From: Sodalis ligni
GTDB lineage: Bacteria; Pseudomonadota; Gammaproteobacteria; Enterobacterales; Enterobacteriaceae
Reading direction: 5' to 3'
Length of the DNA stretch: 64,000 nucleotides
NCBI RefSeq assembly: GCF_016865525.2
Contig: NZ_CP075169.1
Location: 620,337 to 684,336, forward strand
A model generated the notes under the pieces. The model searched no databases and had not been told where the DNA came from. It was given only the letters and a program-made list of their open reading frames with translations. Shown one piece after another: positions 8,509-52,383 of the stretch (positions within the stretch are counted from its first letter, which is position 1; each line of letters starts with the position of its first letter). The position numbers were made by a program, and so were the translations under genes.

Positions 8509-8645
8509 GATGTTTATGCCGATAGAAGTCATAAAATAGGCCGGTAATAACCGGCCTGTTTCGCCTACATAGCGTCCTGCCCCGCCTCTTTAACTCCGGG
8601 ATCGTTTTTCAGCGAGGTAAGACATATAATCTATTGTTAATACTG

Positions 8646-9995: not shown

Positions 9996-10006
9996 GTGGC
10001 GCCTCG

Positions 10007-10477: not shown

Positions 10478-10497
10478 GAGTGGGTTCCATACACTAA

Positions 10498-10950: not shown

Positions 10951-11061
10951 CGTGCCGCTATCTCCCGTTAATTGACGATACCCGGTAGAAAATAACCTTA
11001 TGGTATCAATTTGTCATCTTTTTGCTGCAAAATTCGCCGCAAATTGCCGGCCGCTTTATAC

Positions 11062-11067
11062 ATTATA
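11062..11067 (-). promoter_or_regulatory. Candidate -10 element upstream of aroQ-accBC
   Basis: A perfect TATAAT on the minus strand lies about 110 bases before aroQ, in the only sizeable gap upstream of the aroQ-accB-accC operon. No convincing -35 is visible at 16-18 bases, so this is a weak call. A short inverted repeat, GCGGC and GCCGC, lies just upstream at 11076-11090. Confidence 0.3.
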
Positions 11068-11191
11068 AAGATATCGCGGCTTTTAGCCGCTAAATGCTGG
11101 CGATATCCGCGAAGTTTACCTTGGCGCCTGCCGCAAAGTGGAGAGCAAGATAGCGCATTTTGAACGGGGATAGAAATAAAAACTTATTGTT

Positions 11192-12793: not shown

Positions 12794-13124
12794 GACGGGC
12801 TCCACAGGATCAAACCACAGGCTTTCACATTATTTATAAGTATGATGCATAAAAATCATTTTCATTCCCGCTACGCTTCAACGTGCTGTCAACTCCCCCT
12901 CGCTGACTGACGATTTTGGGGGATTTATAAACGTATTGGCTAAAAATATGTCATTTTAAACCAACTACCGATACACTTATTTTGATTTGCAACCGGCGGT
13001 AAAGGCGGCGACGGGGACGGACGTTGCGCCTTCCATCTTCCGGCTACGAGGGCGGCGACAGGTGACGTTGCGCTTTTCATACTCTGGTCGCAGATTAACC
13101 TCAGACTTTTATCGGGGCACAGGG
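12794..13124. other. Divergent msrP/csrD intergenic region
   Basis: This 331-base gap holds the promoters of msrP (minus) and csrD (plus), but no consensus pair stands out. An AT-rich stretch at 12848-12866 (ATAAAAATCATTTTCATT) loosely resembles a Fur box, with about 10 of the 12 core positions matching. The right half (12990-13124) is open in the csrD frame but has no family similarity, so I treat it as leader. Confidence 0.4.
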
Positions 13125-15014: not shown

Positions 15015-16399
<1,385 letters not shown>

Positions 16400-35044: not shown

Positions 35045-38000
35045 TTATATCCCCTGCCAGGCCAGCATAAACAGCAACATCCTGACGGGTTCCTGCGAGG
35101 GATGTTCACAGGAACGGTGGTTAAGCTGTGCATGCAAATGCAGCAATAAATGGCTGAACCTGTCCGCGTCGTTCAGGATCATTTTGACTCGAGCCAGGGC
35201 CTTGGTGCGGAATAATTGTCTGGCCAGCTTCTTATCGGATAAAAAGGCCACATGCTGAACGTTTGCCGCTTCGGATAAACTCACCAGGCTGTTGATTTCA
35301 TCGCTGCTCATGTTTCCCGACTGTAGTCGGGCCATTAGCAACGGGAAATCGTCTTTAAACACCGGATTCACCAAGGTCTCTTCCTCCGTGACGCTTCCTT
35401 TGCCCACCGAACGGCTGATGGAGGCGATATTTTCCCCGGAGGGAATTTCCTTGCAGCCGTAGCGGCAATAATGCGCCAGATAATGGTTATGAGGCCCCTT
35501 CGACTGGCGATACCGGACATTGAACCATAGCCGCTTCAGCGGATCGGATTTCAGGGCTACCGTGGCAATGGCAAAGGAATCAAAGGAAGCTCCCCAAACC
35601 CGGCCGTAATCGTCTCCGGTATGGTTCTCCAGCAAGGCCAACGTTTTTTTCAGGTTGCTAATGAAAAGCGACCAGGCGCGGTGCTGTATATTTTGGCCTG
35701 CGCCGATTATTTGCAGCGCGGAATAGAACAGGGTCCGCAGCCGCGGCTGCTCTTTTGAGGACAGCAATTCCCGTACCAAAGCGTCACACAGGGAAAGTCC
35801 TTTACGAATAGCATTTGCCTGCGGCGCATAACGCGGACTCAGCGCGATCTCCGCTTCCCCTAAGCCATAAAAAATGATTTTTTTCAAACCGGAATGCGCC
35901 AGGCTTTTTTCAGCGGCCAGGGCCAGCCGACAGGATTTATCATTGGGCAATCTGAAACCTTGCCGATAGCTAAGGCGTGAATCAATTCCGTGTTCCAACA
36001 TCACCGCTGATAGTGTTTTTTGGTAAGAAGCCAGTACCTGATCTCTGCCGGGAATATAAAAGAATTTTTTCTTCTTGTTATCAAACCTTATTTTTAACTC
36101 AATATTTTTATCGCCCCGCAATAGAAAAACGTTCTCGCCAGGCCCAGCGGATATTTCAAAATAATGGTTTTATTGTTAAATAGTCTACGCCATCAGCATC
36201 CTTGGCGATACCCAGGCTATTTACCGGTGTTAAATCGCCGGTTCTTTTGCAAAGCTCATTTAAATTTTCCATAAGCTTTTCATAAAGCCTGATGGAAATA
36301 TCGCTGTATACCGCCATGGAAATCGCCGACCGCGCGTGATATTCACGGCCGGTTAAGCGTCCGAACTGCCAATGGTTTTTCTCATTATGGCATACCGGGT
36401 AACCGGCATTGTCCTCATGGTGAATATCAAAAACTTCGTGGGCTTTCAGCCGGCTATAGAAACGCAGCGGCATGATCTTGCCAAACAGGCGGACGGCCTG
36501 GAGATTTTCCCGCCTCTGTCCGCTTGCCGGCGGCAGAGTGATGCTGAAATGCATGTCAATCCTACCGTTAGGCCATGTGCGCAGGGTGCGGACATAACCG
36601 GAGGGCATCACTGATAATGCCGTTAAAACCCGCTCTAAACCCCCATTGACGTGCTGGGCGCCCTGCATTGCTTGCATATCATAGTTCATTAGGGTCCGAA
36701 ATAACGACAGCGCTATTTTCGGCCCGGCTGAAAAATGAATAACACCTTCATCATCAAAGGGCAGTATTTCGCCGGCGGCGGAAAACAATAACGATAACGC
36801 CAGCCGAGACGGATCGGGAACAGGTGAATAGAACGAACCAGAAACAGGCGATTGAAGCGCCGTCTGACGCGCAGGCGGGTGATACGGACCGTCGCCTTCC
36901 AGCGGCTCAAGGGCGGTGAATGGCGCGATGGGCAAGGCATAGAGTTGGTTGAGCCAGAGAACGGAATCGCCATATCCGTTCTGCGGCCGGGCTTGCCGAA
37001 CGTCAGGTAAATAAGCGGCATCGGCCCATGCCCGCTCCAGCTGCCGTTCGCTCACTATCTCATACAGCAGTCCGGAGGCTTTTTCTTTGTTTTGCCAAAT
37101 ATGTTCTGGATAATCCGCGATGTTTTCCAACCAACGCTCTACTCCCCACCGTCCGAAGATCACATCGCTGCCCTTACTGTCCCGCAAGGCAAAGTGCTTC
37201 AGGAGTTCTTGCCGTGCGAAGCTGTCCCTGCTTTGCCCGACGACCCACTCCCTCATGGCCGCACCGTTTTCAAAGCGGCGAAAGGGCTGTTGGGCCCGGG
37301 GCAGATAGAGCAGCACATCCGGCGCCCCCGGCGCTTCTATCACCGCCAGATCGGTAGCGAGACAGCCGTTGATATCAAAAAGAGAGATATTTAAACGATG
37401 GCGGCCGTCCTCCCCAAGCCCCAGGGCTTGCATGTATATGCCAATATCCCCCGGGCTGGGCTGTTCCCGGTGGTGGCTTAGCCCGTTTACGATATGGATT
37501 AGATTCGCCAGGGCATGGAATTCTTGGTTGACGCGCCGGTAATGGTGCAGGGCATGCTGGTAAACCGCCGTCAGCTTCAGAGAGTCCAGCAGCGGATCCA
37601 GGTCCGATGGCTTGAAGGGCAATAGATCGCCGCGCCGGGTACCTGTTACGCTTGCGTTGCCGCGATACACGCCATAATCATCATCCAGGGCCGCCAGGTC
37701 TTCCGCCTCGCCGGTAAAATATTTTTTGATGGCAAATTCCGTGAGGGTCAGAGAACCTTTCGGCCTGTCCTCAAGACCCTGGCTGACGGGAGAATCAGGC
37801 GTGGACCGGGAAGGATCATTTTGATGCAAAAAACAGTGGTCCGGATTGAGTGAGACGCCAAAGCGCCGGCTGATGGCCTCGGCCAACTGCTGCGCCACAA
37901 TGTTGGTTATGGCGGGATAACTGTCCCGCAGGTAATGCCGTAACTGAACATAAGGCGCCGCCCAAAATGGGCCGCGGAACATCGTGTTTTGGGTGGTCGT

Positions 38001-39175
38001 CTCCGGTGGTAACAAGGTCTCTGATGACAGGTTCAATTTTGTCGCCAACAACGCTTTTAGCGTAACCGTCTCCGGGTAGGCCAAGGCTTCGGACGGTAGC
38101 GTTGCCGCGACCTCGGTAATGGCGTTTATCGGCGGCGGCGCCAAAACAGCGGCAGACCTGCCGGGCGCGGCGCCGCTGACGGCGGGGAAGGGCATCGCCA
38201 CGGCCATCAAACCCTGTGCGAGCACCTGCAATGCGCGGCGGACTGGGGCAATAACCGTGGAGAATAAAGCTGCGGACAACGAAGAGGCGGCAGATCCGGC
38301 AAGAGCCTGGCGATCATGGCGCCGATCCGTTCCCGGCCCGGTTGCCGTGGCGGGTACGTGCGGCTTTTTTATGCCGTAATAGGCTTCCGCGATGCGCTCC
38401 CGCTGAATTTGCCGGCGACGGCTGTCACAGGCCCAGAGCCGCGCCAGCCTGCGACCCTCCCTTTGTTCCCTTTTTTCCGCCGGATTCAGGATTGTCCGGC
38501 CAAAGGGATCTGCCGCGGGCTTAGGGCTCTCCGTGGCGGTTGCGCATAAGAGATGCCAGTATCGGCAGATGCGGGTAAAAGCTGCGCCAGGGCCACGGGC
38601 AGTTTTAAACCGGCGCGGCGGGGAGCCGGTACAGAATGCCCGGCAAGATAATATTCGCCCAACAGCGCCAGCACGCCCAGTACCAGATAATCGCCTTCCG
38701 TTGGCGTGTTAAACCCGGCCGGAAAGGAAGATTATCGAGCCCCACCCGATCCTCGATATGATTCTTGATAAAATTTGCCAAGAGCATCAATTTTTCGCTT
38801 TGGGGTAAAATGGTCAGGGCGAAAAGGGAATCCTCTATCAGCACGCTGCCGATATTTTCTTCACTGCGCCAGAGGCGATAAAATGAATGAGCGGCTGCCA
38901 GCAGGAAAAGGAATGCCCAGGCCGGTTTTATACAAGAGCGAGAGGGATAAACGATCCGCTTCATAGGAAGTGACTATTTTAATCAAATGAAACAGCGTTC
39001 GTTTAAGATCTTCCGTGAACGGAACATTTTCTGTCGGTAATTCCTCCGGTAGGTCGTAATATATTTCGCTATCATCGTCTGTTTCATAATTCGGATCTTC
39101 ACAATCAAAGAATTCGATTTCAGAATCATTGTTGTAAATATTATAATAATCTTTAAAGCCTTCGGTGATCTGCAT
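35045..39175 (-). pseudogene. Second decayed DUF6543-type toxin/effector gene, multiple frameshifts
   Basis: Reading leftward from an ATG at 39175 with a strong AAGGGGA ribosome site, one protein of roughly 1,370 residues can be followed through several frames: 39175-38861, about 38920-38690, about 38710-38540, about 38560-36156 and 36163-35045. The last shift is clear: in the A-run 36158-36161 (T-run on the coding strand) one extra base turns PLFEISAGPGENVF into PLF-stop. The central 700 residues carry FDINGCLATDL and VLLYLPRAQQPF, matching the toxin core of the 1-3584 gene. The final 358 residues match nothing I know. The opening is very acidic (YETDDDSEIYYD). The gene is presumably inactive, though the 700-codon central frame is long enough that a partial product cannot be excluded. 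Confidence 0.82.
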
Positions 39176-39943: not shown

Positions 39944-40294
39944 GTGGTGGATAAAGCCGTACCCGCGACCGGGGGAAAGAATGAACTGGAACCGTTGTCC
40001 GCGGCGCTGATCGAAAAAGTGTTGGCGGGCATCATGGAGATGATGAAAACGAGAAATATTCAGGTCAATACCGTGCAGGAACAAATGCTGCATTCCCATG
40101 TCCGGGCAATGGTTCTGCGGTCCCTTACCGGTGAGCCGTTACCCGAGGTGGATGAAAGCCTGTTTGACGAAATCTCTCCGGATTCCATGTTAATGGCAAA
40201 AAAAGTGGTAAATGAATTAGGCAATTTACCGGTGGAAGAGGCCTATTTATTATCGGTTCATTTTGAAGTGGCGAAAGACAATACCGCTAAATAA
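39944..40294 (+). CDS. Small PRD-domain protein, first gene of the SFCGS operon
   Basis: The 116-residue protein corresponds to a short stand-alone PTS-regulation-domain family (which I recall as TIGR03582, EF_0829-like). PRD helices appear as LIEKVLAGIMEMM, EQMLHSHVRAMVLRSLTG and NLPVEEAYLLSVHFEVAK, with His residues in conserved-looking positions (HSHV and VHFE). GTG at 39944 is favoured by GGGAG at 39933-39937; the ATG-less frame upstream to 39902 is not family-like. With no DNA-binding domain it probably senses PTS phosphorylation and talks to the multidomain regulator at the operon end (inference). Confidence 0.8.
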   Translation: MVDKAVPATGGKNELEPLSAALIEKVLAGIMEMMKTRNIQVNTVQEQMLHSHVRAMVLRSLTGEPLPEVDESLFDEISPDSMLMAKKVVNELGNLPVEEAYLLSVHFEVAKDNTAK

Positions 40295-40310
40295 AGTTGG
40301 AGGACATTTT

Positions 40311-40676
40311 ATGGGTCAGGTAACAGTGGTCATCGGCGATCGTTTGGGTAAAGGCCAGAAAGTGGCCCAGGGCATTGAGCAGGCCGGCGGCAAAGCGATT
40401 GTCGTGCCCGGCATGGCCGCGGATATGAAGCTAGGGGACGTCATGCAAAAAGAGCAGGCGGATTTCGGCATCTCTTTTTGCGGCAGCGGCGGCGCCGGAG
40501 CCATTACCGCGCAGAATAAATACGGTTATAAAGCGAAATACGGCATGAGGTCCATTGAAGAGGGCGTCACTGCTATTCAGGAAGGATGCAAAGTGCTGGG
40601 TTTCGGTTTTATGGATAAGGAAGAGTTGGGGAAAAAGCTGATTGAAACCTGGCTTAAAAAATACGGCGCCGCCTGA
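40311..40676 (+). CDS. Glycine-rich SFCGS family protein (DUF2620)
   Basis: The 121-residue protein carries the family-naming motif SFCGSGGAGAITAQNKYGYK in its middle, with a single Cys in a glycine-rich loop. The N-terminal VTVVIGDRLGKGQKVAQGIEQAGGK resembles the phosphoryl-binding or nucleotide-type beta-loop-alpha start of EIIB-like proteins, but I see no established homology. GGAGG at about 40298-40302 precedes the ATG. The gene overlaps the next start (TGATG). As I recall, this family is found only in operons with DUF4310-4312; its role is unknown, perhaps a soluble transporter component. Confidence 0.85.
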   Translation: MGQVTVVIGDRLGKGQKVAQGIEQAGGKAIVVPGMAADMKLGDVMQKEQADFGISFCGSGGAGAITAQNKYGYKAKYGMRSIEEGVTAIQEGCKVLGFGFMDKEELGKKLIETWLKKYGAA

Positions 40677-40972
40677 TGGAAGAGCAGTCGGTCATTAAAG
40701 TCAGGGTGGCGGGCAAAGGCGAAACCAAGAACGGTGCGCTGGCCGCCGCGTTAAGCCAGGTTCAGCCGTCGGTAATGAAATCCACCGGCGCCGTTTTGCT
40801 GCGTATCGAACCCATGCAGGTGGACGTGGTGAGCGCGGAAGAAATCCGCACGGTGGAAAAATTTCTTTTTTTCTTTCTGCCCAGGGAAAAGAGGAGCTAC
40901 AGCGTGGTGTTGGATATTACGGTCAGCATCATCATGATCGATCCCGAAAAAATCCCTTTTTCTCAGCGTTAA
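40676..40972 (+). CDS. DUF4312 family protein
   Basis: A 98-residue soluble protein, beta-rich by appearance (IKVRVAGKGETKNGALAAALSQV then VVLDITVSIIMID). It fits the DUF4312 family always found between the SFCGS protein and the DUF4311 membrane protein. Start and stop overlap with its upstream neighbour (TGATG), implying matched production of the two. It contains no Cys or His, so it is unlikely to carry a phosphoryl group itself; a structural or coupling subunit is my guess. Confidence 0.8.
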   Translation: MEEQSVIKVRVAGKGETKNGALAAALSQVQPSVMKSTGAVLLRIEPMQVDVVSAEEIRTVEKFLFFFLPREKRSYSVVLDITVSIIMIDPEKIPFSQR

Positions 40973-41002
40973 TCAGGTGGGTTAATACAAAAGGATAATC
41001 CG

Positions 41003-41779
41003 ATGTTTCTCATCATTTTAATCAAGTCTCTTATTATCGGCGGGCTGGTGGGATTTGGCGTGGGCGCCGGAGCGGCCCGTATGTTCCATGCTCCCACCAT
41101 TCAGGGCATGGGGGCGTTTCGTACCTTGGGAGAGCTGAATTCGTGCGAAGGGGATCCTGCATCCCATTTTTCCTTCGGCCTGGGATTTTTCTTTAACGCC
41201 TGGGCGTCTTCGGTGGCGGCCGGGTCTTTTACCCAGGATGTGGATCATCGCATTATCCCGCACTGGGGCGCGGCGGTGCTGATGATAAAAAACCGCCGGC
41301 TAGACCAGACCATGCACGATCCGCGGCGTATGGCCATTGCCTGCGGCATCATCGGCATGGTGGTGGTGGCGTTTCTTAACTCCACGGCTTCCGCCGTTCC
41401 GGCCGCGCTGCAGGTGACGGCGGTGAAGGTGCTGGTGCCTGCCGCCAATATTCTGGTGAACACCGTGATGCCGGTTATTTTCTGGCTGGCGGCCATTGAT
41501 GCCGGCAAACGTTCGGGTTTTTGGGCGACGATTTTCGGCGGCCTGGCGCAATTGATCATGGGCAACGCCGTGCCGGGACTGGTGCTGGGGATTCTGATCG
41601 GCAAAGGGGTGGAAGAGGGCGGCTGGAACAAGATTACCGGCATCATGATGACGGCCATCGTGGCGCTGTTTGTCCTGAGCGGATTTTTCCGCGGTTTCGA
41701 TATGAAAATGCTGCAGTCTTTCAGCCTGGGCGTTCCCGGCTGGCTGGACGCTATCCATAACCAGCTGAGCGGTAAATAA
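41003..41779 (+). CDS. DUF4311 family membrane protein, probable transporter subunit
   Basis: The 258-residue protein has about six to seven hydrophobic segments and begins with a membrane helix (FLIILIKSLIIGGLVGFGVGAGAARMF). A polar conserved-looking stretch, GELNSCEGDPASHFSFGLGFFFNAWASS, follows the first helix and could line a substrate site. GNAVPGLVLGILIGKG is near the C-terminus. It fits the DUF4311 family and pairs with DUF4310 next door; together they look like the membrane part of a transporter, comparable in arrangement to EIIC plus EIID of mannose-type PTS, though I see no sequence proof. Confidence 0.82.
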   Translation: MFLIILIKSLIIGGLVGFGVGAGAARMFHAPTIQGMGAFRTLGELNSCEGDPASHFSFGLGFFFNAWASSVAAGSFTQDVDHRIIPHWGAAVLMIKNRRLDQTMHDPRRMAIACGIIGMVVVAFLNSTASAVPAALQVTAVKVLVPAANILVNTVMPVIFWLAAIDAGKRSGFWATIFGGLAQLIMGNAVPGLVLGILIGKGVEEGGWNKITGIMMTAIVALFVLSGFFRGFDMKMLQSFSLGVPGWLDAIHNQLSGK

Positions 41780-41798
41780 CCTCGAGGGGATCCTGAAA

Positions 41799-42443
41799 AT
41801 GGAACAAGAAAAACGCGGTTTTTGGTATGCCGACTGGTCTTTCCCGATCTTTGTCGGGGTACTGTCCGCCGGCATTTTCGCCGGTACCCATATGTATTAT
41901 CTCTACGGCATCGGGGCGTTCAATGAAGTGGCGTTTGTCTCCATGCTGCGCACCGGCATAGATACCGGGGTATACGGCGCGGTGGCGGCCTTTGGCGCCA
42001 GCTTTCTGTTTGCCCGCATTATCGAAGGTTCGCTGGTGGGAATCCTGGATATCGGCGGCGCGCTACAGACCGGCGTAGGACTTGGGGTACCGGCGCTGCT
42101 GCTGGGGGCCGGCATTAAATATCCGCTGCAGAATTTCGCCGCGTCGCTGGCCACCGGCCTGGTGCTGGGGATAGTTATCGGCTGCCTGATTATCCTGGCG
42201 CGCAAGTTCACCATCAACCAGAGCAATTCCACTTATGGGGCGGATGTCATGATGGGCGCGGGTAACGCCTCCGGCCGTTTTCTCGGCCCGCTGATCATCC
42301 TGTCCGCCATCACGGCGTCGATCCCTATCGGTTTGGGTTCTCTGCTGGGGGCGCTGCTGTTTTATCTCTGGAATAAGCCCATAACCGGCGGCGCCATTCT
42401 GGGCGCGATGATACTCGGGGCAATCTTCCCCATAGCGCTGTAA
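41799..42443 (+). CDS. DUF4310 family membrane protein, probable transporter subunit
   Basis: The 214-residue protein starts with a short soluble WYADWSF stretch and then has about six membrane segments. Glycine-rich motifs DIGGALQTGVGLGVPALLLGAG and DVMMGAGNASGRFLGP are notable; the latter echoes GVGAGAARMF of the DUF4311 partner, so the two may descend from one ancestor. It follows DUF4311 by 19 bases. Confidence 0.82.
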   Translation: MEQEKRGFWYADWSFPIFVGVLSAGIFAGTHMYYLYGIGAFNEVAFVSMLRTGIDTGVYGAVAAFGASFLFARIIEGSLVGILDIGGALQTGVGLGVPALLLGAGIKYPLQNFAASLATGLVLGIVIGCLIILARKFTINQSNSTYGADVMMGAGNASGRFLGPLIILSAITASIPIGLGSLLGALLFYLWNKPITGGAILGAMILGAIFPIAL

Positions 42444-42479
42444 CCACGTATATCAGGTGCGTTATACGGAGAATGGCAA

Positions 42480-43619
42480 ATGTATGATCTCATTATAAGA
42501 CGGGCAAAAAAGAGTGACGGCAGCCTGACGGACATTGCCGTCCGTAACGGCAGGATAGCGGTTGTCGGGGAGGTGGACGAGCACGCCTCCGCCGCACAAA
42601 CGCTCGACTTGCAGGGAGCGGTTTTCGCCAGCGCCGGCTGGATTGATGCCCATGTCCATTGTTACGCCAAATCGCCGGTTTATCACGATGAGCCGGATTT
42701 GGTAGGGGTTGCCGGCGGGGTCACCACCGTGATTGACGCCGGCAGCACCGGCGCCGATGACGTGGACGATTTCTACCGGCTCACCCGGGCGGCCGAGACT
42801 CAGGTGTACGCGTTTTTGAATATTGCCCGTACCGGCATCGTCACGCAGGATGAACTGGCGGACATGACGCGAATCGATCCGGTTGCCGTCCGTGAGGCGC
42901 TGCAAAACCATCCCGGTTTTATTATCGGTCTCAAGGCGCGCATCAGCAGCAGCGTGGTGGGAAGCAACGGCATCAAGCCCCTGGCGCGCGCCAAGGAGAT
43001 GCAGCGGGAAACGCCTTCGCTGCCGCTGATGGTGCACATCGGCAATAACCCGCCGAGCCTGGATGAAATCGCGGATCTGCTCACTTCCGGCGACATCATT
43101 ACCCACTGTTTCAACGGCAAACCCAACCGGATTTTATCCGCCAAAGGCGAACTGCGCTCCTCGATAAAACGCGCGCTGGGGCGTGGTGTGCGCCTGGACG
43201 TCGGACATGGCACCGCCAGCTTCAGCTTCGCCGTCGCCGAACAGGCGATCAAACAGGGCATTTTGCCCTATACCATCAGTTCCGATATTTATTGCCGAAA
43301 CCGCATCAACGGCCCGGTGCATAGCCTGGCGGCGGTCATGTCGAAATTTTTTACCCTCGGCATGAACCTTGAAGAGGTTATCCAATGTGTCACCGCACAC
43401 GCCGCCGAGGTATTGCGTTTACCGTCTAAAGGACGCCTGGCCGTGGGCGCCGATGCGGATTTGACGTTGTTCGATATCCGTACCGAACCTCAGGTTCTGG
43501 TGGATTCCGAAGGACTGTCCATTACCGGCGAACGTCATCTGGCGCCGCTGGCGGCCGTGGTGGCGGGTAAGGTCCTGTTAACCGATGAAGGGAAATCAAA
43601 AAATGTCTTCAATCTATGA
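42480..43619 (+). CDS. Amidohydrolase/deacetylase family metallohydrolase
   Basis: A 379-residue amidohydrolase-superfamily enzyme. Metal-site features in order are DAHVHCY (HxH) near residue 58, GLKAR with the Lys that is normally carboxylated near residue 152, MVHIG, THCFNG, DVGHGTASF and SSDI. It closes with KGRLAVGADADLTLFD typical of dihydroorotase/deacetylase relatives. In this operon the logical reaction is removal of an N-acyl group from an amino-sugar acid. Its 3' end overlaps the next gene. Confidence 0.87.
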   Translation: MYDLIIRRAKKSDGSLTDIAVRNGRIAVVGEVDEHASAAQTLDLQGAVFASAGWIDAHVHCYAKSPVYHDEPDLVGVAGGVTTVIDAGSTGADDVDDFYRLTRAAETQVYAFLNIARTGIVTQDELADMTRIDPVAVREALQNHPGFIIGLKARISSSVVGSNGIKPLARAKEMQRETPSLPLMVHIGNNPPSLDEIADLLTSGDIITHCFNGKPNRILSAKGELRSSIKRALGRGVRLDVGHGTASFSFAVAEQAIKQGILPYTISSDIYCRNRINGPVHSLAAVMSKFFTLGMNLEEVIQCVTAHAAEVLRLPSKGRLAVGADADLTLFDIRTEPQVLVDSEGLSITGERHLAPLAAVVAGKVLLTDEGKSKNVFNL

Positions 43620-44721
43620 GCAGTATCAGCTGAAGCAGGTAATAAACGCCTCCGGACGCATGACGATTCTGGGCGTGTCCACCCCGGCCGCGGACGTGGC
43701 TGAGGCGGTTAATTACGGTTTGAACCACTTTTTTGAAATGAAGGATCTGGTGAATAAAACCGGGGCCTATATCGCCGGCCTGCTGAAGGTGGAAAGCGCG
43801 GTGGTGGTTTCCTGCGCCTCCGCCGGCATCGCTCAATCCGTTGCCGCGGTGATTGTCAAAGACGATGCCTGGCTGTTGGAAAACCCGTATGAAACGGCAT
43901 CCGGCGTGGCCCGGGATATTGTGTTGCCAAAAGGCCACAACGTGAATTTCGGCGCGCCGGTCTCCACCATGGTGGCCCTGGGAGGCGGTAAGGTCGTGGA
44001 AGCCGGCTATGCCAACGAATGTTCCGCCGCCCAGCTGGCGGCCTGCATTACGCCGCGCACCGCCGCCATTCTCTACATCAAGTCCCACCATTCGGTGCAA
44101 AAAAGCATGCTGTCGGTGGCACAGGCCGCCGCCGTCGCCCGTGAACACCATGTGCCCCTCATTGTCGACGCCGCCGCCGAAGAAGATCTGACGGTCTATT
44201 ACCAACAGGGGGCGGACCTGGTGATTTACAGCGGCGCGAAGGCCATTGAAGGCCCCACCAGCGGTTTGGTCCTGGGTAAAAAACAGTTCGTGGAGTGGGT
44301 AAAGCTGCAGTCCGGCGGTATCGGCCGCGCGATGAAAGTGGGCAAGGAGGGCATTCTCGGCCTGACCCAGGCGATAGAGAGCTATACCCGGCTGCCGAAG
44401 ACCACCGGACGGCAAATGGTGGATAAAATGGCGCCGTTTATCAGCAGTCTGAACGCGCTGCGCGGCATATCGGCACGCGTGGTATGGGATAGCGCCGGAC
44501 GGGATATCGCCCGCACGGAAATCACCTTTGATGAAGCCGCGCTCGGCTGGAAAACCAAGGATATCGTCGACGCGCTGAAAAACGGCGACATCGCCATTTA
44601 TTTTCGGGGCTATCGCGCCAATGAAGGCAAGATTGAAGTGGATGTGCGCAGCGTGACGCCGCCGCAGCTGGAGACCATTGCCGCCTGTATCGAAAATCTG
44701 TTTAAAGGAGCCGAGGCATGA
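43603..44721 (+). CDS. DgaE-family pyridoxal phosphate-dependent ammonia-lyase
   Basis: A 372-residue fold-type I PLP enzyme of the DgaE/MJ0158-like group. The presumed Schiff-base Lys is in VIYSGAKAIEGPTSG near residue 214, and LIVDAAAEEDL supplies the cofactor Asp. Salmonella DgaE, with DgaF, converts D-glucosaminate-6-phosphate to 2-keto-3-deoxygluconate-6-phosphate plus ammonia. ATG at 43603 has AAGGGA upstream; an in-frame ATG at 43585 lies inside the preceding gene. It overlaps the deacetylase gene and the aldolase gene (ATGA), so the three are tightly coupled. Confidence 0.87.
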   Translation: MSSIYEQYQLKQVINASGRMTILGVSTPAADVAEAVNYGLNHFFEMKDLVNKTGAYIAGLLKVESAVVVSCASAGIAQSVAAVIVKDDAWLLENPYETASGVARDIVLPKGHNVNFGAPVSTMVALGGGKVVEAGYANECSAAQLAACITPRTAAILYIKSHHSVQKSMLSVAQAAAVAREHHVPLIVDAAAEEDLTVYYQQGADLVIYSGAKAIEGPTSGLVLGKKQFVEWVKLQSGGIGRAMKVGKEGILGLTQAIESYTRLPKTTGRQMVDKMAPFISSLNALRGISARVVWDSAGRDIARTEITFDEAALGWKTKDIVDALKNGDIAIYFRGYRANEGKIEVDVRSVTPPQLETIAACIENLFKGAEA

Positions 44722-45458
44722 AACTTACGCCGAATTTTTACCGCGATCGCGTATGTTTGAACGTGCTGGCGGGATCCAAAGATAACGCCCGCGCTATCCA
44801 TGCCGCCGCCGAGGGCCATGTGCTGGTGGGCGTGCTGTCTAAAAATTATGCCGATGTTCCGTCCGCCGTGGCGGATATGCGCGATTACGCTGCGCTGATC
44901 GACAATGCGCTGTCGGTGGGATTGGGAGCGGGGGACCCGCGCCAATCGCTGATGGTCAGCCTGATTTCCCGGCAGGTCCAGCCGCAGCATGTAAATCAGG
45001 TGTTTACCGGCGTCGGCGCCAGCCGCGCCCTGCTGGGCCAAAGCGAGAGCGTGGTGAACGGCCTGGTTTCCCCCACCGGTAAAGCGGGCTGGGTGAAGAT
45101 TTCCACCGGGCCCCTCAGCTCGGCGGCGCCCGACGCCATAGTGCCCATAGAAACCGCCATCGCGCTGTTGAAAGACATGGGCGGCAGTTCGGTGAAGTAT
45201 TTCCCCATGGGAGGATTGAAAACCCGGGAAGAATTTGCGGCGGTGGCCCGCGCCTGCGCCGAACATGATTTTGCCCTGGAGCCTACCGGCGGTATCGATT
45301 TGGCGAATTTTGAACCGATTTTGACCATCGCGCTGGAAGCCGGCGTCGGCAAAATCATCCCCCATATCTACAGCTCGATTATCGACCAAACCAGCGGGCT
45401 GACTCGTCCGGTGGACGTCAAGGCCCTGCTGGCGATGGTGAAAAAGCTGCTGGGCTGA
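44718..45458 (+). CDS. KDGP aldolase family protein (DgaF-like)
   Basis: A 246-residue TIM-barrel aldolase of the DgaF-type family. It would cleave 2-keto-3-deoxy-6-phosphogluconate to pyruvate and glyceraldehyde-3-phosphate, completing the ammonia-lyase step upstream. Likely active-site text is GGSSVKYFPMGG with the Schiff-base Lys near residue 157, and LEPTGGIDLANFE. It is not the common Eda family. The ATG overlaps the dgaE-like stop codon. Confidence 0.87.
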   Translation: MKLTPNFYRDRVCLNVLAGSKDNARAIHAAAEGHVLVGVLSKNYADVPSAVADMRDYAALIDNALSVGLGAGDPRQSLMVSLISRQVQPQHVNQVFTGVGASRALLGQSESVVNGLVSPTGKAGWVKISTGPLSSAAPDAIVPIETAIALLKDMGGSSVKYFPMGGLKTREEFAAVARACAEHDFALEPTGGIDLANFEPILTIALEAGVGKIIPHIYSSIIDQTSGLTRPVDVKALLAMVKKLLG

Positions 45459-45514
45459 ACGTCCGCTCGCGGAATCCCCGTTTATCCGACACGCCGTGAG
45501 AGATAAGGAAAAAT

Positions 45515-46711
45515 ATGAAAAGTAATTACGGGTTTATGATTTCCGGCTTAACCGCCGCGATGCTGGCCGTAGCCGCCACGCCGCTGTACGCCGCCCCAAA
45601 AGCCCCGGCCGCGCGTTATGCTTACGTCGGTACCTATAATCCGAACGGCGAGGGCGTTTACCGTTTTGATTTCAACGGCAAAACCGGGGCGCTCACCAAC
45701 CGGACGCTGGTAAGCCAGTTGCCTAACCAGGCGCAAATGGTGGCGGCTCGCGACGGCCAGACGCTGTATATCGGCAACGAAATCGACAATTACAACGGCG
45801 GCAAGCACGGCGCGGTGGCGGCTTACCATATCAATTCCCAGGATGGCAGCCTGAGCCTTATCAATCAGGTGGACTCCCAGGGCGCCGGCCCGGTCTTTCT
45901 TTCGCTGACGCCCAAGGGCGACCATCTTCTGGTGGCAAACTATATCAGCGGCGTGGTGGCGTCATTCCCCATCGACGCCGGCGGTAAAATAGGTGAGACC
46001 GGCTCAAGCCAGCAGGATTCCGGTCCGGCCGGAGCGGGAAAACCGGCGGCGGCGGCGGAGGGCAGCTTTGCCGTCAGCGATCATAATGGTCCCCATGCCC
46101 ATATGGTCGCGGCCGATCCCAGCGGCAAATTCGCTTTCTCCACCGATTTGGGACTGGACCGGATTTATCTGTGGAAACTGAACGATGCTACCGGGGCGCT
46201 GGAAGCCAACGATCCGCCCTTTATCAACGCGTCATCGGCCGGCGCCGGTCCGCGCCATTTCGTATTCCATCCCAACGGCAAGGTCGTCTTCCTGATTAAC
46301 GAAGAGGCCTCGGTGCTCACCAGCTATCGCTTCGACAGTGCGAAGGGCACCCTGACGCAGTTGCACAGCCTCTCTTCGTTGCCGGCGAATTTCAAAGGCA
46401 CCAATTTCGCCGCTGGCATCGTGTTGAGTAAAGACGGCCGCCATCTTTATGTGGCCAATCGCCTGCATAACAGCATCGCGCAAATCAACGTCACCGGCGA
46501 GGGCGCCATGGCCTGGGGCGGCGAGATCTGGACGCGCGGAGATTACCCGCGCACACTGACGATGTCGCCGGACGGCAGATATATTTTCGCAATGAATCAG
46601 CGAAGCGATAACATCACCCGGTTCCGGGTGGCCGGCGGCAGCGGCAAATTAGCGTTTGTTGACGATTACATTCCGGTGGGCAGCCCATCGCAGATGGTGA
46701 TTGCCCCTTGA
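45515..46711 (+). CDS. Exported lactonase-family beta-propeller protein
   Basis: A 398-residue seven-bladed beta-propeller of the YbhE/Pgl lactonase type. Unlike cytosolic 6-phosphogluconolactonase it has a Sec signal peptide (MKSNYGFMISGLTAAMLAVA, cleaved near LYAAPK), so it works in the periplasm. Typical propeller text includes YAYVGTYNPNGEGVYRF, NEIDNYNGG, GPHAHMVAADPSGKF and GPRHFVFHPNGK. Sixty bases after the aldolase gene and with its own AAGGA site, it probably belongs to the same operon and could open a sugar-acid lactone before uptake. Confidence 0.85.
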   Translation: MKSNYGFMISGLTAAMLAVAATPLYAAPKAPAARYAYVGTYNPNGEGVYRFDFNGKTGALTNRTLVSQLPNQAQMVAARDGQTLYIGNEIDNYNGGKHGAVAAYHINSQDGSLSLINQVDSQGAGPVFLSLTPKGDHLLVANYISGVVASFPIDAGGKIGETGSSQQDSGPAGAGKPAAAAEGSFAVSDHNGPHAHMVAADPSGKFAFSTDLGLDRIYLWKLNDATGALEANDPPFINASSAGAGPRHFVFHPNGKVVFLINEEASVLTSYRFDSAKGTLTQLHSLSSLPANFKGTNFAAGIVLSKDGRHLYVANRLHNSIAQINVTGEGAMAWGGEIWTRGDYPRTLTMSPDGRYIFAMNQRSDNITRFRVAGGSGKLAFVDDYIPVGSPSQMVIAP

Positions 46712-46856
46712 AAAGAGAATTCCTTGCACAGAGTATTCCCTAACCAGCGATACGCCGGGCTGACGGCGTAAGTAGGTACAGCGGCACGGGATAACAGGAT
46801 GCCGTCCCGGACCGAATCGAAAGCGCTGTTTGCCGGCAATAATGATTGGAAGGATA

Positions 46857-48776
46857 ATGGTGAGATTTCCCTATCAACGATTGGCCCACTTGTTTGACGC
46901 GCTGCAGCTCGAAACGCTGCCGCAGGACGAGCTGGCAAAACGCCTGGCAGTCTCAACACGCACCGTGCGGGCGGATATTATTGCTTTAAACGAAATTATC
47001 GCGCAGTACGGGGCCGCCTTTGTGTATAACCGCGGCAGCGGCTATCAATTGAAAGTAGATGACCCGTCGCTATTCTCCACCCTGCAACAGACGGTAAGCC
47101 ATCGCGTCAATCTGACGCCGCGCACTGCCGCGGATCGGGTGGATTATCTGTTGATCCGCTTTTTGACCTCCGCGTTCTCGTTAAAGCTGGAGGATCTGGC
47201 GGATGAATGGTTTGTCAGCCGTGGAACGCTGCAAAATGATATGGCCGAGGTGCGTGAGCATCTGGCGCGCTATAACCTGAATATCGAAACCAAACCGCGC
47301 TACGGCATGAAACTGTTCGGCGCCGAGCTGTCTATCCGGGCCTGTTTGACCGACCTCTTGTTCCAGCTCGATGCCGGGGATCACGCCAATCCGCTGCTGA
47401 AAACCGAAAGCCTGGATCGCGGGACCTATGAAAAGCTTACCCGTTTTATGCATCAACTGCTGGCGCAATCGTCCATCCGCCTCACCGATGAAAGCGAGCG
47501 TTATCTGAATTTTTATTGCGCCGTGGCCATCAAGCGCATCGCCGGCGGTTTTCCCCTGACGGAGTTTGAGGCGGAAGAGGGCGATCCGGCGGTGAAACAG
47601 ATATCGGTGCGGCTGATGGCAGAGCTGAAATCCCTGGCGGGCAAAGAGATCCCGGCGGCGGAAGAGGCTTACCTCAGGGTGAATATCGCCGCGCGGCGGG
47701 TGCAGAATATCCTGCCCACTGATATTAACGCTGACGACGACGAGTCGCTGGTGGACTATATCCTGTCCTATATCAATACCCACTATAACTACGATTTACG
47801 TGGCGATAAGCAGTTGTGTACCGATCTGCTTACTCACATCAAGACCATGATTACCAGGGTAAAATATCAGATTAATATCCCCAATCCGCTGTTGGCCAAT
47901 ATCAAGCAGCATTATCCCATGGCCTATGATGTCACCCTGGCGGCGGTGAACAGCTGGGGCAAATATACGCCGTATGTGATAAGCGAAAATGAAATCGGCT
48001 TCCTGGTGCTGCATATCGGCGTGGGTCTGGAGCGCCATTATGATATCGGCTATCAGCGCCATCCCCAGGTGCTGCTGGTGTGCGATAGCGGTAACTCTAC
48101 GGTGCGTATGATTCAGGCGCTGCTGAGCCGCAAATACCCGCAAATCAGCGTGACCCGGGTCATTTCATTGCGGGAATACGAGAGATTGCCGGCGTTGGAG
48201 GAGGATTTTGTGATTTCCACCGTTCGGCTGGAGGAAAAGAATAAGCCGGTGATGGTACTGGCGCCGTTTCCCAGTGATTACCAGCTTGAGCAACTGGGTA
48301 AACTGGTGCTGGTGGATCGTACCCGGCCTTATATGCTGGAAAAGTTTTTCCATGAAAATTATTTTATGATCGTTGATAAGCCCATGGATCAACAGGATCT
48401 GTTCAAGCGGGTGTGCGGGCAATTGAAACGCGATGGGTTGGTGGGTAAAGATTTTTATCCGTCGGTGGTTGAGCGGGAAGCCATTGTCAGCACGCTGCTG
48501 GGGGACGGTATCGCATTGCCCCATTCGCTGGGATTGCTGGCGAAAAAAACGGTGATTTATACCATATTGGCGCCCCAGGGTATTCCGTGGGGCGATGGCG
48601 AAACCGCCTACGTGGTTTTTTTGCTGGCCATTAACAAGACTGATTATGAAGAGGCGATGGCGATTTACGAGCTGTTCGTGAATTTTGTCCGTGCGCGCGC
48701 CATGCCCAGGCTGCGGGAGAGCCGTGATTTCGCCGGCTTCAAGGCGGTGGCCATTGATAGCCTGAGCCGGGCTTAA
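46857..48776 (+). CDS. PRD/PTS-domain transcriptional regulator (HTH-PRD-PRD-EIIB-EIIA)
   Basis: A 639-residue activator or antiterminator-like regulator. Domains in order are winged HTHs near residues 15-60 and 105-140 (KRLAVSTRTVRADIIALN; WFVSRGTLQNDM), PRD1 about 195-285, PRD2 about 300-390 (His in THIKTM and LHIGVGLER), an EIIB-like domain with Cys409 in LLVCDSGNSTVRM, and a fructose-type EIIA domain with His556 in GIALPHSLG. HPr- and EII-dependent phosphorylation should switch it with substrate supply. It follows the lactonase gene by 145 bases and ends exactly at the npr stop codon. The ATG at 46857 and the GTG next to it are both possible. Confidence 0.92.
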   Translation: MVRFPYQRLAHLFDALQLETLPQDELAKRLAVSTRTVRADIIALNEIIAQYGAAFVYNRGSGYQLKVDDPSLFSTLQQTVSHRVNLTPRTAADRVDYLLIRFLTSAFSLKLEDLADEWFVSRGTLQNDMAEVREHLARYNLNIETKPRYGMKLFGAELSIRACLTDLLFQLDAGDHANPLLKTESLDRGTYEKLTRFMHQLLAQSSIRLTDESERYLNFYCAVAIKRIAGGFPLTEFEAEEGDPAVKQISVRLMAELKSLAGKEIPAAEEAYLRVNIAARRVQNILPTDINADDDESLVDYILSYINTHYNYDLRGDKQLCTDLLTHIKTMITRVKYQINIPNPLLANIKQHYPMAYDVTLAAVNSWGKYTPYVISENEIGFLVLHIGVGLERHYDIGYQRHPQVLLVCDSGNSTVRMIQALLSRKYPQISVTRVISLREYERLPALEEDFVISTVRLEEKNKPVMVLAPFPSDYQLEQLGKLVLVDRTRPYMLEKFFHENYFMIVDKPMDQQDLFKRVCGQLKRDGLVGKDFYPSVVEREAIVSTLLGDGIALPHSLGLLAKKTVIYTILAPQGIPWGDGETAYVVFLLAINKTDYEEAMAIYELFVNFVRARAMPRLRESRDFAGFKAVAIDSLSRA

Positions 48777-49049
48777 TCAGTCTTCGTTAAAGCCGGCGTT
48801 GAAGAGTTCAATGATAGCCGCCAGCGCCCGTTCTTCATCAGGGCCGGTGGCTTCGATTTCAATCAGCCCGCCCTTGGCGGAATCCAGCATCAGCAGCGCG
48901 ATAACGCTGCTGGCTTCCGCTTCGGTCCCGAAGTCGTTGCGCAGCAGCACCTCGGCGTCAAAGCTTTGCACCAGATCGAATAATTTCATGGCTGGCCGGG
49001 CATGCATGCCGAGACGATTCTTGATTTCCACCGTTTGCTTGACTGTCAT
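48777..49049 (-). CDS. npr: Phosphocarrier protein NPr
   Basis: NPr (PtsO) is the HPr-like carrier of the nitrogen PTS, passing phosphate from PtsP to EIIA-Ntr. The 90-residue protein has the active His in [10 protein letters not shown] (position 16) and the [10 protein letters not shown] end. The ATG at 49049 overlaps the rapZ stop (TCATGA). Its stop codon abuts, with no gap, the stop codon of the convergent PRD regulator. Confidence 0.98.
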
Positions 49050-49897
49050 GAGCGTTTTTCCAGGGTTCGGTGTCTGGATTGGACATTTTTGCCGCGGGAG
49101 CGGAAATAATCCGCCAACTGCTCGGCAACATACACTGAACGGTGTTTGCCGCCGGTACAGCCAATGGCCACCGTTAAATAGCTGCGGTTGTTGGTCTCCA
49201 GCATCGGCAGCCACAGTTCGAGATAACTTCGGGTTTGGTAAATGAAATTATGGACTTCGGTGTGCCGGTCGAGAAAGGCCGCCACCGGTTTATCCAGACC
49301 GGTCATCGGCCGCAGTTTCGGATCCCAGTGCGGGTTGGGCAGGAATCGTACGTCAAAAACATAGTCCGCATCGATGGGCAGGCCGTGTTTGTAGCCGAAG
49401 GACTCGAACACCATGGTCAATTCGCGCTCGCGTTTGCCCAGCAGCCGGGTGCGGAGCATTTCCGCCAGTTCATGCACCGACATTTCCGAGGTGTCGATAA
49501 TCAAATCGGCCCTGGAGCGCAGCGGTTCCAGCAGTTCGTTCTCCTGATCGATGGCGCTTTCCAGCGACAGGTTCTTGCTCGACAGCGGGTGCAGGCGCCG
49601 GGTATCGCTATAACGGCGGATCAGGGTGCTGCGCTCGGCGTCGAGAAACAGCAGCTGCGGCGAAAAGCTTTGCGGCAGGTTATCCATTGCATGCTCGAAA
49701 ATTTCCGGCGTTTCGGGCATGTTGCGCACGTCAATACTGACCGCGGCGGAAATATTGCGATCCGCCAGGGTGGCGGCCAGCTGCGGCAGCAATACCACAG
49801 GCAGGTTATCGACGCAATAAAACCCCATATCTTCCAGCGCGCGTAGCGCCACTGACTTCCCTGAACCGGATCGACCGCTGACAATCATCAGCACCAT
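49046..49897 (-). CDS. rapZ: RNase adapter protein RapZ
   Basis: RapZ binds GlcN6P and guides RNase E to the small RNA GlmZ, so tuning GlmS and amino-sugar synthesis. The 283-residue protein has the Walker [17 protein letters not shown] at residue 8, the Walker B-like [10 protein letters not shown] region, and the C-terminal RNA-binding domain with [14 protein letters not shown] and Lys/Arg-rich SRHRTLEKR. It lies between ptsN and npr as in E. coli. Confidence 0.99.
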
Positions 49898-49995
49898 GAC
49901 GACTCCCCTCTGGCATTAACATCGACGCATTGGCGAAGAGGCCGCTATTTCCGCCAATCAAACCCCGCGGGTCGGTAAGCGTAGGATACTGCGCG

Positions 49996-50475
49996 TTAAG
50001 ACCCGGCTTCTGTTTCCGTCATGATTTCATAAAGTTCTTCGTCGCTTTGAGCGGCGCGTAGCCGGCGGCAGACCGTTTTATCAGCCAGACGCTTGGCTAC
50101 CAACGATAGCGTATGCAGGTGCGTTTTGCATTGTTCCGCCGGCACCAGCAGGGCAAAAAGCAAATCCACCGGTTGATTATCGATGGCATCGAAGGCGATG
50201 GGCTGCTCCAGGCGGATAAATACCCCCACCGCCCGCAGCGTGTCCTCTTCCAGTTTGCCGTGGGGGATCGCGATTCCATTACCGATACCGGTACTGCCCA
50301 TGCGTTCACGGGTTAATACGGCGTCAAATACCACCTGCGGCGCCAGGTTAAGCTGTTTGGCCGCCAGTTCGCTGATTATTTCCAGCGCGCGTTTTTTGCT
50401 CTGGCACTGAATGGAGCCGCGGGTGCATTCAAGGCTTAACACCGTATTGATTTGCATTGCTGTATCGTTAGTCAT
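49996..50475 (-). CDS. ptsN: Nitrogen regulatory EIIA-Ntr protein
   Basis: EIIA-Ntr is the output protein of the nitrogen PTS; it regulates K+ transport (TrkA, KdpD) and other targets according to its phosphorylation. The 159 residues contain the phospho-His in GIGNGIAIPHGKL near residue 72. It is downstream of rpoN-hpf, with a 160-base gap carrying repeat-like DNA. Confidence 0.98.
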   Translation of the reverse strand: MTNDTAMQINTVLSLECTRGSIQCQSKKRALEIISELAAKQLNLAPQVVFDAVLTRERMGSTGIGNGIAIPHGKLEEDTLRAVGVFIRLEQPIAFDAIDNQPVDLLFALLVPAEQCKTHLHTLSLVAKRLADKTVCRRLRAAQSDEELYEIMTETEAGS

Positions 50476-50523
50476 TTCGTTTCACTTAGGCGCTGATTCA
50501 CCTTTAAGACTCATCGGCCCATT

Positions 50524-50635
50524 ATACCCGTCATCTTGCGAGTCGCGGGTGTGTTGGCTTAGTTGCTCGGCTCATCCATGAGCCTCGCCATTACGAGCCG
50601 ATGCGAGGTCAGGCTGCGACAATGGCTACAGTGAA
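50524..50635. repeat. ERIC-like or palindromic intergenic remnant between hpf and ptsN
   Basis: TATACCCGTCATCTTGCGAGTCGCGGGTGTGTTGGC begins in the same way as the ERIC ends, but the ERIC core is absent. Instead a short palindrome, GGCTCATCCATGAGCC, follows at about 50569-50584. It may be a different repeat family sharing ERIC-like ends, or a replaced ERIC. Confidence 0.5.
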
Positions 50636-50923
50636 TTAAAACTGTTTCAGTTTATCTTTATGCTTGTTAAGTTGACGCGCCAGCTTATCTATCAGCAGAT
50701 CGATGGCGGCATACATATCATCCGCTTCCGAAGTCGCGTGCAGCTCGCCGCCATTGACATGTATCGTCGCTTCAGCGATCTTCTGCACCTTTTCGACTTT
50801 TAGAACAATATATACCTGATTGATTCGGTCGAAGTACTGTTCAAGCTTGGAAAATTTCGCAGTAACGAAATCGCGTAACGCATCGGTGATATCAACACGC
50901 TGTCCGGTAATATTCAGCTGCAT
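50636..50923 (-). CDS. hpf: Ribosome hibernation promoting factor Hpf
   Basis: Hpf binds the 30S decoding centre and helps make 100S hibernating ribosomes in stationary phase. The 95-residue short-form protein has the family start MQLNITGQRVDITDALRDFV and the Lys-rich end HKDKLKQF. ATG at 50923 fits; a start at 50950 would overlap rpoN and is not family-like. It follows rpoN closely. Confidence 0.98.
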   Translation of the reverse strand: MQLNITGQRVDITDALRDFVTAKFSKLEQYFDRINQVYIVLKVEKVQKIAEATIHVNGGELHATSEADDMYAAIDLLIDKLARQLNKHKDKLKQF

Positions 50924-50946
50924 AGTGTCTTCCTTCTCTGTGGAGG

Positions 50947-52383
50947 TCAAACCAATTGTTTTCGCTGGTTCGACGGCGGGATGGATAAGGACTCACGATA
51001 TTTTGCCACGGTACGCCGTGCTACCATAATACCCTGATCGGAAAGCAGGGTAGTCAGCTTGCTGTCGCTGAGCGGCTTCGCCGGGTTTTCTGCGGCGATC
51101 AGTTTTTTCACCAGCGCGCGAATGGCCGTTGAGGAAGCTTCGCCGCCCCCTTCGGTATTGACGTGACTGGAGAAAAAATATTTAAGTTCGTAGATACCGC
51201 GCGGGCTGTGCAGATATTTTTGCGTGGTAACGCGAGATATGGTTGATTCATGCATATCCACCGCCTGGGCGATATCCGCCAGCACCATGGGACGCATAAA
51301 CTCTTCCCCCTGTTCGAAAAATGCCTGCTGCTGCTCTACGATGCAGCGGGTGACTTTCAACAGGGTGTCATTACGGCTTTCAAGACTTTTAATCAGCCAG
51401 CGGGCTTCCTGCAGGTGGCTGCGGATAAACTGCCCGTCCGCATCGTTTCGGGTGGTGTTGCCCAGCGCCGCGTATTGCTGATTGATTTTAAGGTTGGGAA
51501 TGCTGTCGGTATTGAGTTCCACCGTCCAGCGGTTATGCACTTTGCGCACCAGGACATCGGGTATCACATACTGCGATTCGGTGGTATTGATGGATTGGCC
51601 CGGGCGGGGATCCAGGGATTGAATCAGCGCCATCGCCGATTTCAACACCTCTTCTTTCAGCCGCGTCGACCTCAGCAGGGTACGGAAATCGTGGCTGGCC
51701 AGCAAATCCAGGTAATCGGTGACGATAAGCCTGGCTTCCGCCAGATACGGAAAGTCCTTTGACAGCTGCGAGAGCTGAATGAGCAGGCAATCACGTAAAT
51801 CCCGCGCCGCCACACCCACCGGATCGAATCGCTGGACTCGTTTCAGCACCGCTTCCACTTCATCCATGGTCACGCTCTCTACGCCGATGCTTTCCAGGAT
51901 ATCTTCCAGCGGCACGGTGAGATAACCGGTCTCATCCACCGCATCCACGATGGAGGTGGCGATAGCGATGTCGGTGTCGGAAAAAGGCGTCAGCTCCACT
52001 TGCCACATCAGATAATCCTGCAGCGTCTGAATGGTCTCGCCCTGGTAAATCGGCAGCTCCTCGTCGCGATAATCCGTACCGGTGCCGGACGGGGTGCCCG
52101 CTGAATACATTTCGTCCCAGGTAGCGTCCAGCGGCAGTTCTTCCGGCATATCCTTTTGCTCCATCGCCTCGCGGGTATCGAGGGATTCGGAGTCGGGAGC
52201 GTCGTGCGGCGTGTCTATTTCTTCATGAACGTCCGATTGTTCGAGTAAAGGATTGCTTTCCAGCGCAGTCTGTATTTCCTGCTGGAGTTCAAGCGTGGAC
52301 AATTGCAACAGACGTATCGCCTGCTGTAACTGCGGAGTCATGGCCAGTTGCTGACTAAACCTGAGTTGCAAACCTTGCTTCAT
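50947..52383 (-). CDS. rpoN: RNA polymerase sigma-54 factor
   Basis: RpoN directs transcription of nitrogen and other enhancer-dependent genes. The 478 residues show the Gln/Leu-rich region I ([22 protein letters not shown]), an acidic region II, the core-binding region, the HTH ([17 protein letters not shown]) and the RpoN box [11 protein letters not shown] near the C-terminus. It sits between lptB and hpf as in other enterobacteria. Confidence 0.99.

Follow-up and report, generated by a model that had tools for sequence, protein, structure and literature searches.

What does the ten-gene operon in a 64,000-nucleotide stretch of the Sodalis ligni chromosome (the whole of this stretch is called the window below) take up and degrade? 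It combines four families of unknown function, SFCGS, DUF4312, DUF4311, and DUF4310, with three enzymes of sugar-acid breakdown. All ten reading frames are complete, intact, and on the plus strand, and together they span positions 39944 to 48776, as an earlier note on this DNA had described. We favor, at even chances, the view that the operon degrades an N-acylated 2-amino-2-deoxy aldonic acid, N-acetyl-D-glucosaminate (GlcNAc1A) being the most likely candidate, with uptake probably coupled to the phosphotransferase system (PTS). A substrate of this class is likely; GlcNAc1A itself is moderately likely. The evidence comes from comparison of sequences and structures, which gives the gene content, family membership, conserved residues, a predicted RpiB fold for SFCGS, PTS-type sites in the regulator and the PRD protein, and a gene for an HPr-Enzyme I (EI) protein in Bartonella. 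From it we infer the following order of steps. In loci that have a lactonase, this enzyme would hydrolyze the lactone in the periplasm. SFCGS, DUF4312, DUF4311, DUF4310, and a stand-alone PRD protein would import the acid, probably phosphorylating it at C-6 in a PTS-coupled way. The amidohydrolase would then remove acetate, the DgaE-type lyase would eliminate ammonia to give 2-keto-3-deoxygluconate 6-phosphate (KDG-6-P), and the aldolase would yield pyruvate and glyceraldehyde-3-phosphate. The regulator would sense the phosphorylation state of the PTS.

All eight core structural genes exceed the cut-offs of their NCBIfam models (the TIGR03577-TIGR03583 set plus TIGR01437). The scores, in bits against the cut-off, are 126 versus 69 for the PRD protein (TIGR03582), 223 versus 141 for SFCGS, 115 versus 90 for DUF4312, 495 versus 301 for DUF4311, 388 versus 215 for DUF4310, 553 versus 432 for the amidohydrolase (TIGR03583), 579 versus 385 for the lyase (TIGR01437), and 388 versus 222 for the aldolase (TIGR03581). 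The aldolase also passes the DgaF equivalog model NF047796 (378 versus 300), and the PRD protein falls under the Pfam PRD cut-off (21.3 versus 23 bits). Family assignments made in the earlier note hold in both Pfam and NCBIfam. Its description of the pathway as likely undescribed needs correction: seven of the NCBIfam models bear the names of Enterococcus genes EF_0829 to EF_0839, and six carry Aeromonas locus names (AHA_3910-3917). These seven models are "hypothetical equivalogs" that give no substrate, and TIGR01437 names the DgaE family only. In addition, a passage of PMC7701990 had already suggested a possible amino-sugar role for EF0839. We conclude that the operon is real, well conserved, and previously catalogued.

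Genes of the Sodalis ligni operon, with window coordinates and the basis of each assignment
Gene product	Position	Strand	Basis
Stand-alone PRD protein (EF_0829/AHA_3910 family)	39944..40294	+	TIGR03582; two conserved His
SFCGS protein	40311..40676	+	predicted RpiB fold; Cys57 in GISFCGSGGAGA; window copy without histidine
DUF4312, small protein	40676..40972	+	PF14189/TIGR03578; window copy without His or Cys
DUF4311, multi-helix membrane protein, presumed import module	41003..41779	+	PF14188/TIGR03580; helical AlphaFold2 model
DUF4310, second presumed membrane protein of import module	41799..42443	+	PF14187/TIGR03579; alignment
EF_0837-type amidohydrolase, putative N-acetyl sugar-acid deacetylase	42480..43619	+	TIGR03583; PDB 8wzy, 2ics, 2ogj
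DgaE-type pyridoxal phosphate (PLP) ammonia-lyase	43603..44721	+	TIGR01437; PDB 7lc0
DgaF-type KDG-6-P aldolase	44718..45458	+	NF047796, TIGR03581; PDB 3m0z, 3lm7
Optional, presumably exported lactonase (7-bladed propeller family)	45515..46711	+	PF10282; signal-peptide-like start by eye
Regulator: helix-turn-helix, Mga, PRDs, EIIB-like motif, EIIA	46830..48776	+	PF08279, PF05043, PF00874 (two stretches), PF00359

The genes are closely packed, with intergenic gaps of 16, -1, 30, 19, 36, -20, -4, 56, and 118 bases in order. The gap of -20 is counted from position 43600; with the lyase ATG at 43603, the amidohydrolase and lyase genes overlap by 17 bases. SFCGS and DUF4312 overlap by 1 base and the lyase and aldolase genes by 4, which agrees with the overlapping starts and stops reported earlier.

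For comparison, we scanned genome contigs for DUF4311, confirmed 488 relatives, kept the loci of the best 80, and added four plasmid loci, giving 84 loci with a bias toward close relatives. Of these, 81 contain the full set of nine core genes, and the remaining three are truncated by contig ends. The lactonase gene is present in 31 of the 81 complete loci; the gene set of the earlier note thus stands as ten genes in the window, with the lactonase outside the conserved core.

The lyase matches the solved D-glucosaminate-6-phosphate ammonia-lyase (DGL) of Salmonella (PDB 7lc0). In a docked model of DGL described in a passage of PMC9529869, Arg301, Arg332, and Arg346 lie beside the substrate phosphate, His163 is the proton donor at C-3, and Arg226 lies near the carboxylate. 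A lyase frame of at least 300 residues was obtained from 79 of the 84 loci, making 80 distinct copies with that of the window. The equivalents of the three phosphate-site arginines are kept in all 80, window included, as are the counterpart of His163 and the PLP lysine. Since the aldolase scores above the DgaF cut-off, the intermediate that it cleaves is expected to be KDG-6-P or a close analogue. For the amidohydrolase, the structures of close relatives have been solved (PDB 8wzy and 2ics). Of the residues presumed to form its metal site, one histidine is present in 82 of 83 copies and the others in all 83. EF0837 and Atu3266 reportedly deacetylate acetyl-(R)-mandelate; this compound is an R-configured alpha-acyl acid, like N-acetyl-D-glucosaminate. 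Judged from these matches, deacetylation, deamination, and aldol cleavage would make up a complete route to pyruvate and glyceraldehyde-3-phosphate. The three-step route of the earlier note, with a deacetylase, a Dga-type lyase, and a Dga-type aldolase acting on an N-acyl amino-sugar acid, is therefore coherent by family and structure.

The operon shares its DgaE-type lyase and DgaF-type aldolase with the Salmonella DgaABCD-E-F system, which, according to a passage of PMC9529869, imports its substrate via the PTS proteins DgaABCD (a title cited there assigns them to the mannose family). In contrast, the window operon has four DUF-type proteins and a deacetylase beside the lyase, and genes for mannose-family EIIABCD were not found in it. 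A parallel in logic is the Ong pathway of marine bacteria. Passages of PMC9537276 report GlcNAc1A breakdown as proven in Pseudoalteromonas, with proteins other than those considered here and with free intermediates up to KDG, deacetylation preceding deamination; a structure of the Ong deacetylase is described in part of PMC12017989. The window operon would follow the same logic of deacetylation, deamination, and formation of KDG-6-P (compare the same passages of PMC9537276 and PMC12017989). The catalysts differ, however: the Ong deacetylase is D-aminoacylase-like (subtype V; PMC12017989, in the passage concerned), whereas the window amidohydrolase is of the EF_0837 type, and its PDB matches at E <= 1e-10 exclude the D-aminoacylases 1M7J and 3GIP. 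KdgK and the SSS symporter of the Ong cluster are absent from the ten window genes. The earlier note needs correction here as well, in that breakdown of N-acetylglucosaminate is already known through another route, the unphosphorylated Ong pathway, as passages of PMC9537276 describe.

Several features point to a link with the PTS. Among 80 copies of the regulator (presumably of the "MtlR type"), the PRD2 histidine pair is present in every one, the EIIA histidine in 79, and a cysteine in a motif that we read as EIIB-like in 77 (exceptions, L033, L054, and L066). In the stand-alone PRD protein, two histidines are each conserved in all 92 aligned copies. On two Bartonella plasmids (L083 and L084), a gene for a 671-residue HPr-EI fusion directly follows the regulator gene; the two operons are near identical and are therefore best read as one event. 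The other 82 loci, to the extent that they were fetched, yielded no relative of the fusion; their hosts are mostly enterobacteria and would normally possess an EI and HPr of their own. Kinase families gave no match among the ten window genes, nor do the annotations of the Bartonella and Klebsiella operons list a kinase, yet the lyase and aldolase come from families that use phosphorylated substrates. Gaps of at least 600 bases between core genes occur in only 2 of the 84 loci, those of Enterococcus and of Yersinia aldovae (L036), so elsewhere there is no room for a kinase gene inside the core. Together with the phosphate-site arginines of the lyase, the lack of room for a core kinase outside Enterococcus suggests that uptake probably phosphorylates the substrate. 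A PTS-coupled importer of an unrecognized type is a plausible proposal on these grounds. The earlier note, whose interpretation is partly supported overall, had noticed neither the PTS signals nor the RpiB fold predicted for SFCGS.

A number of results weigh against breakdown of GlcNAc1A with PTS-coupled uptake, and they bear on two alternatives. Literature searches found no tested function for genes of this operon. No EIIA, EIIB, or EIIC domain was found in importer genes 2 to 5, which gave no match to a PTS family up to E = 1 and reach a cut-off solely for SFCGS, DUF4312, DUF4311, and DUF4310. DUF4312 has no invariant histidine or cysteine across 96 copies. The DUF4311 model, built from 45 sequences, is all helical, with a pLDDT of 69.9 and no reliable fold match. 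The Enterococcus regulator lacks an aligned EIIA histidine, and the Bartonella HPr-EI fusion could serve regulators only. The Enterococcus cluster also holds a separate EIIC of the lactose/cellobiose family, a MupG-family gene, and, behind the enzyme triad, a KDG-kinase-like PfkB gene that scores below the models' cut-offs. One alternative is an unphosphorylated route resembling that of Ong: the DUF proteins would work as a secondary transporter, deacetylation and deamination would take place on the free acid, and KDG would be phosphorylated, by a kinase whose gene lies elsewhere, before the aldolase acts. The Ong enzymes act ahead of phosphorylation, according to PMC9537276 in the passages cited; the Enterococcus PfkB gene and the absence of Enzyme II homology in the DUF genes point the same way. 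Such a route is a serious but unlikely alternative: the phosphate-site arginines conserved in all 80 lyases, the PTS-type regulator, the PRD protein, and the HPr-EI gene of the Bartonella operons argue against it.

The lyase itself provides further points against the favored reading. It misses the curated DGL equivalog model NF047797 (370.5 bits versus a cut-off of 600). The counterpart of His162 is kept in 78 of 80 copies and is alanine in both Bartonella copies, and the counterpart of Arg226 is lysine in 44 of 80, including the window, and arginine in 36. The missed cut-off and the variable Arg226 position would fit the same enzymology with a different substrate, for example an epimer or some other sugar-acid derivative that carries an N-acyl or O-acyl group; in Enterococcus, where the MupG-family gene and the EIIC lie, it might be a product of the muramic-acid type. 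We regard this as doubtful. The aldolase score points to KDG-6-P or a close analogue, and relatives of the Enterococcus MupG and EIIC were found in no other locus compared.

The predicted structure of SFCGS has the fold of the sugar-phosphate isomerase RpiB, and Cys57, in GISFCGSGGAGA, aligns with a cysteine of E. coli RpiB that we take to be catalytic. The window SFCGS has no histidine and therefore lacks the RpiB histidine, which presumably opens the sugar ring. Thus, SFCGS would share the fold and the cysteine loop with the RpiB/LacAB isomerases but is shorter (121 residues versus 149 in E. coli RpiB). The predicted RpiB fold with a cysteine motif and without histidine is, as far as the model goes, new here. 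A PDB sequence search with the SFCGS alignment gave one chance-level row (E, 0.88). No EIIB occurred among 50 VIA rows for SFCGS. The fold and cysteine motif could also mean that SFCGS is a working sugar-phosphate isomerase of the pathway and no part of an importer. We consider this very unlikely, given the absent histidine and a three-enzyme route that needs no isomerase. Moreover, SFCGS directly precedes DUF4312 and the membrane genes in 85 of 85 loci, and in a family discussed next, DUF2620, the gene lies beside yhfT in 6 of 6 yhf-type clusters.

The E. coli yhf operon (L086, positions 6936 to 14345) has a parallel layout, with a PRD protein, YhfY, and a small Cys-loop protein, YhfU (DUF2620), adjoining YhfT, which we assume to be a membrane protein. 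Its enzymes are other than those of the window: a putative aminotransferase, YhfS, and a putative hydrolase, Php, presumably of the amidohydrolase superfamily. SFCGS and YhfU are linked by reciprocal weak Pfam matches (E, 0.011 and 0.028) and by weak LacAB_rpiB matches in 2 of 4 YhfU proteins (E, 0.065 and 0.061). A direct hhalign comparison of the two was weak (probability, 3.4; E, 0.013), and a PDB search with YhfU gave, among unrelated rows, two for RpiB and one for a ribose/galactose isomerase (E, 0.59 to 0.78). Neither DUF4311 nor DUF4310 resembled YhfT in hhalign, and the two did not resemble one another. An N-terminal motif seemingly shared in one alignment was probably forced by the aligner, and joint folding of DUF4311 and DUF4310 through four joined database proteins (P0042, P0078, P0097, and P0102) was abandoned because the mixed alignments were misaligned. 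The two operons may share a principle. As a speculative proposal, and a rather improbable one in this specific form, SFCGS, DUF4312, DUF4311, DUF4310, and the PRD protein would constitute an unrecognized class of PTS-coupled importer, with the histidine-phosphorylated PRD protein or the regulator EIIA in place of EIIA, the RpiB-fold protein with its invariant cysteine in place of EIIB, and yhf as a second branch.

Where the substrate would come from was considered through the lactonase. Of the 31 lactonases, 17 fit a crude export-signal pattern, and many others resemble them by eye when spurious upstream starts are disregarded. The signal-peptide-like start fits a lactone source outside the cytoplasm, in line with the lactone suggested earlier. 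A source in oxidized chitin, also suggested in the earlier note, is unsupported. The host genome has no match to LPMO_10, a family of lytic polysaccharide monooxygenases (LPMOs). DUF4311 occurs in 21 of 36 LPMO_10-positive genomes and 75 of 162 others (Fisher p = 0.20) in a sample of 198 genomes that includes reduced genomes, which add shared absence; without one weak match (G843) and one broken copy (G767), the figures are 21 of 36 and 73 of 162 (p = 0.20). This, too, counts on the negative side. The host does have two full-length matches to membrane pyrroloquinoline quinone (PQQ) dehydrogenases of the glucose/quinate type and two adjacent part-length ones. Periplasmic oxidation of an N-acetyl sugar to the lactone, followed by opening by the lactonase, is therefore possible. 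The part-length pair (L110 and L111; G000:C1:2399988-2402341) is a third match broken into two pieces that overlap and lie in different frames. In Yersinia aldovae (L036, positions 14669 to 15991, minus strand), a 440-residue frame lies between the aldolase and regulator genes, where relatives may carry the lactonase.

We next consider how widely the operon occurs. The host genome, a single contig of 6.44 Mb, carries a DUF4311 that is 99% identical to that of Sodalis sp. dw_96. DUF4311 was matched in 96 of 198 genomes of the host's family (the weak match G843 and the broken copy G767 included) and in 12 of 398 genomes sampled from the phylum, all 12 within that family. It was found in 0 of 385 genomes of the class of G008, which we take to be Alphaproteobacteria from the GcrA of G008, a family also matched in the control Sulfolobus. 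Exceptions in Alphaproteobacteria are the two Bartonella plasmids and Microvirga sp. W0021 (P0032). The Bartonella plasmids are bat derived, and type VI secretion genes adjoin their core operon and HPr-EI fusion. A distant blastn search of an E. coli collection gave no DUF4311 match, and an E. coli control genome gave one, under the cut-off. Among the best 120 of 1269 matches to DUF4310 are those of many lactic acid bacteria. Thus, DUF4311, a family for which literature searches found no tested function, is present in about half of the species sampled from the host's family. If our interpretation is true, bacteria with the operon can use N-acetylglucosaminate, and four families of unknown function receive roles; if the importer is PTS coupled, it would represent a new type of sugar-phosphorylating permease.

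DUF4311 was also found in Aeromonas species. For two Aeromonas species, passages of PMC11653859 report LPMO, KdgK, and KdgA homologues with distant or no OngB/OngC and leave open other deacetylases and deaminases. The presence of DUF4311 in other Aeromonas species, together with the Aeromonas locus names in six NCBIfam models, makes an operon of the window type a candidate to fill this gap. In E. faecalis, EF0839 and EF2975 may serve breakdown of amino or other sugars and may add fitness in nutrient medium, as stated in a passage of PMC7701990, and a promoter fragment of EF0839 or EF2975 was recovered in a urine-induction screen, according to part of PMC2912369.

A few loci show irregularities. 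Possible frameshift or decay was seen in L063 (a short lyase frame and a drop in DUF4310 similarity), L070 (a short lyase frame), and G767 (the broken DUF4311). A single 218-amino-acid SFCGS-DUF4312 frame in L037 (positions 9213 to 9866) looks like a frameshift and not a true fusion. The DNA of the Enterococcus locus (L082, from position 15501) contains the aldolase gene, which the gene table of the plasmid collection omits.

Searches of the window gave no tRNA or Rfam match, and sigma-54-like sites were rarer than chance (57 versus 83 expected). Just upstream of the operon, at positions 35045 to 39175 on the minus strand, lie several open frames not nameable by eye. Immediately downstream, at positions 48777 to 52383 on the minus strand, the neighbors resemble by eye what we take to be npr (HPr-like), rapZ, ptsN, hpf, and rpoN, a nitrogen-PTS/sigma-54 cluster.

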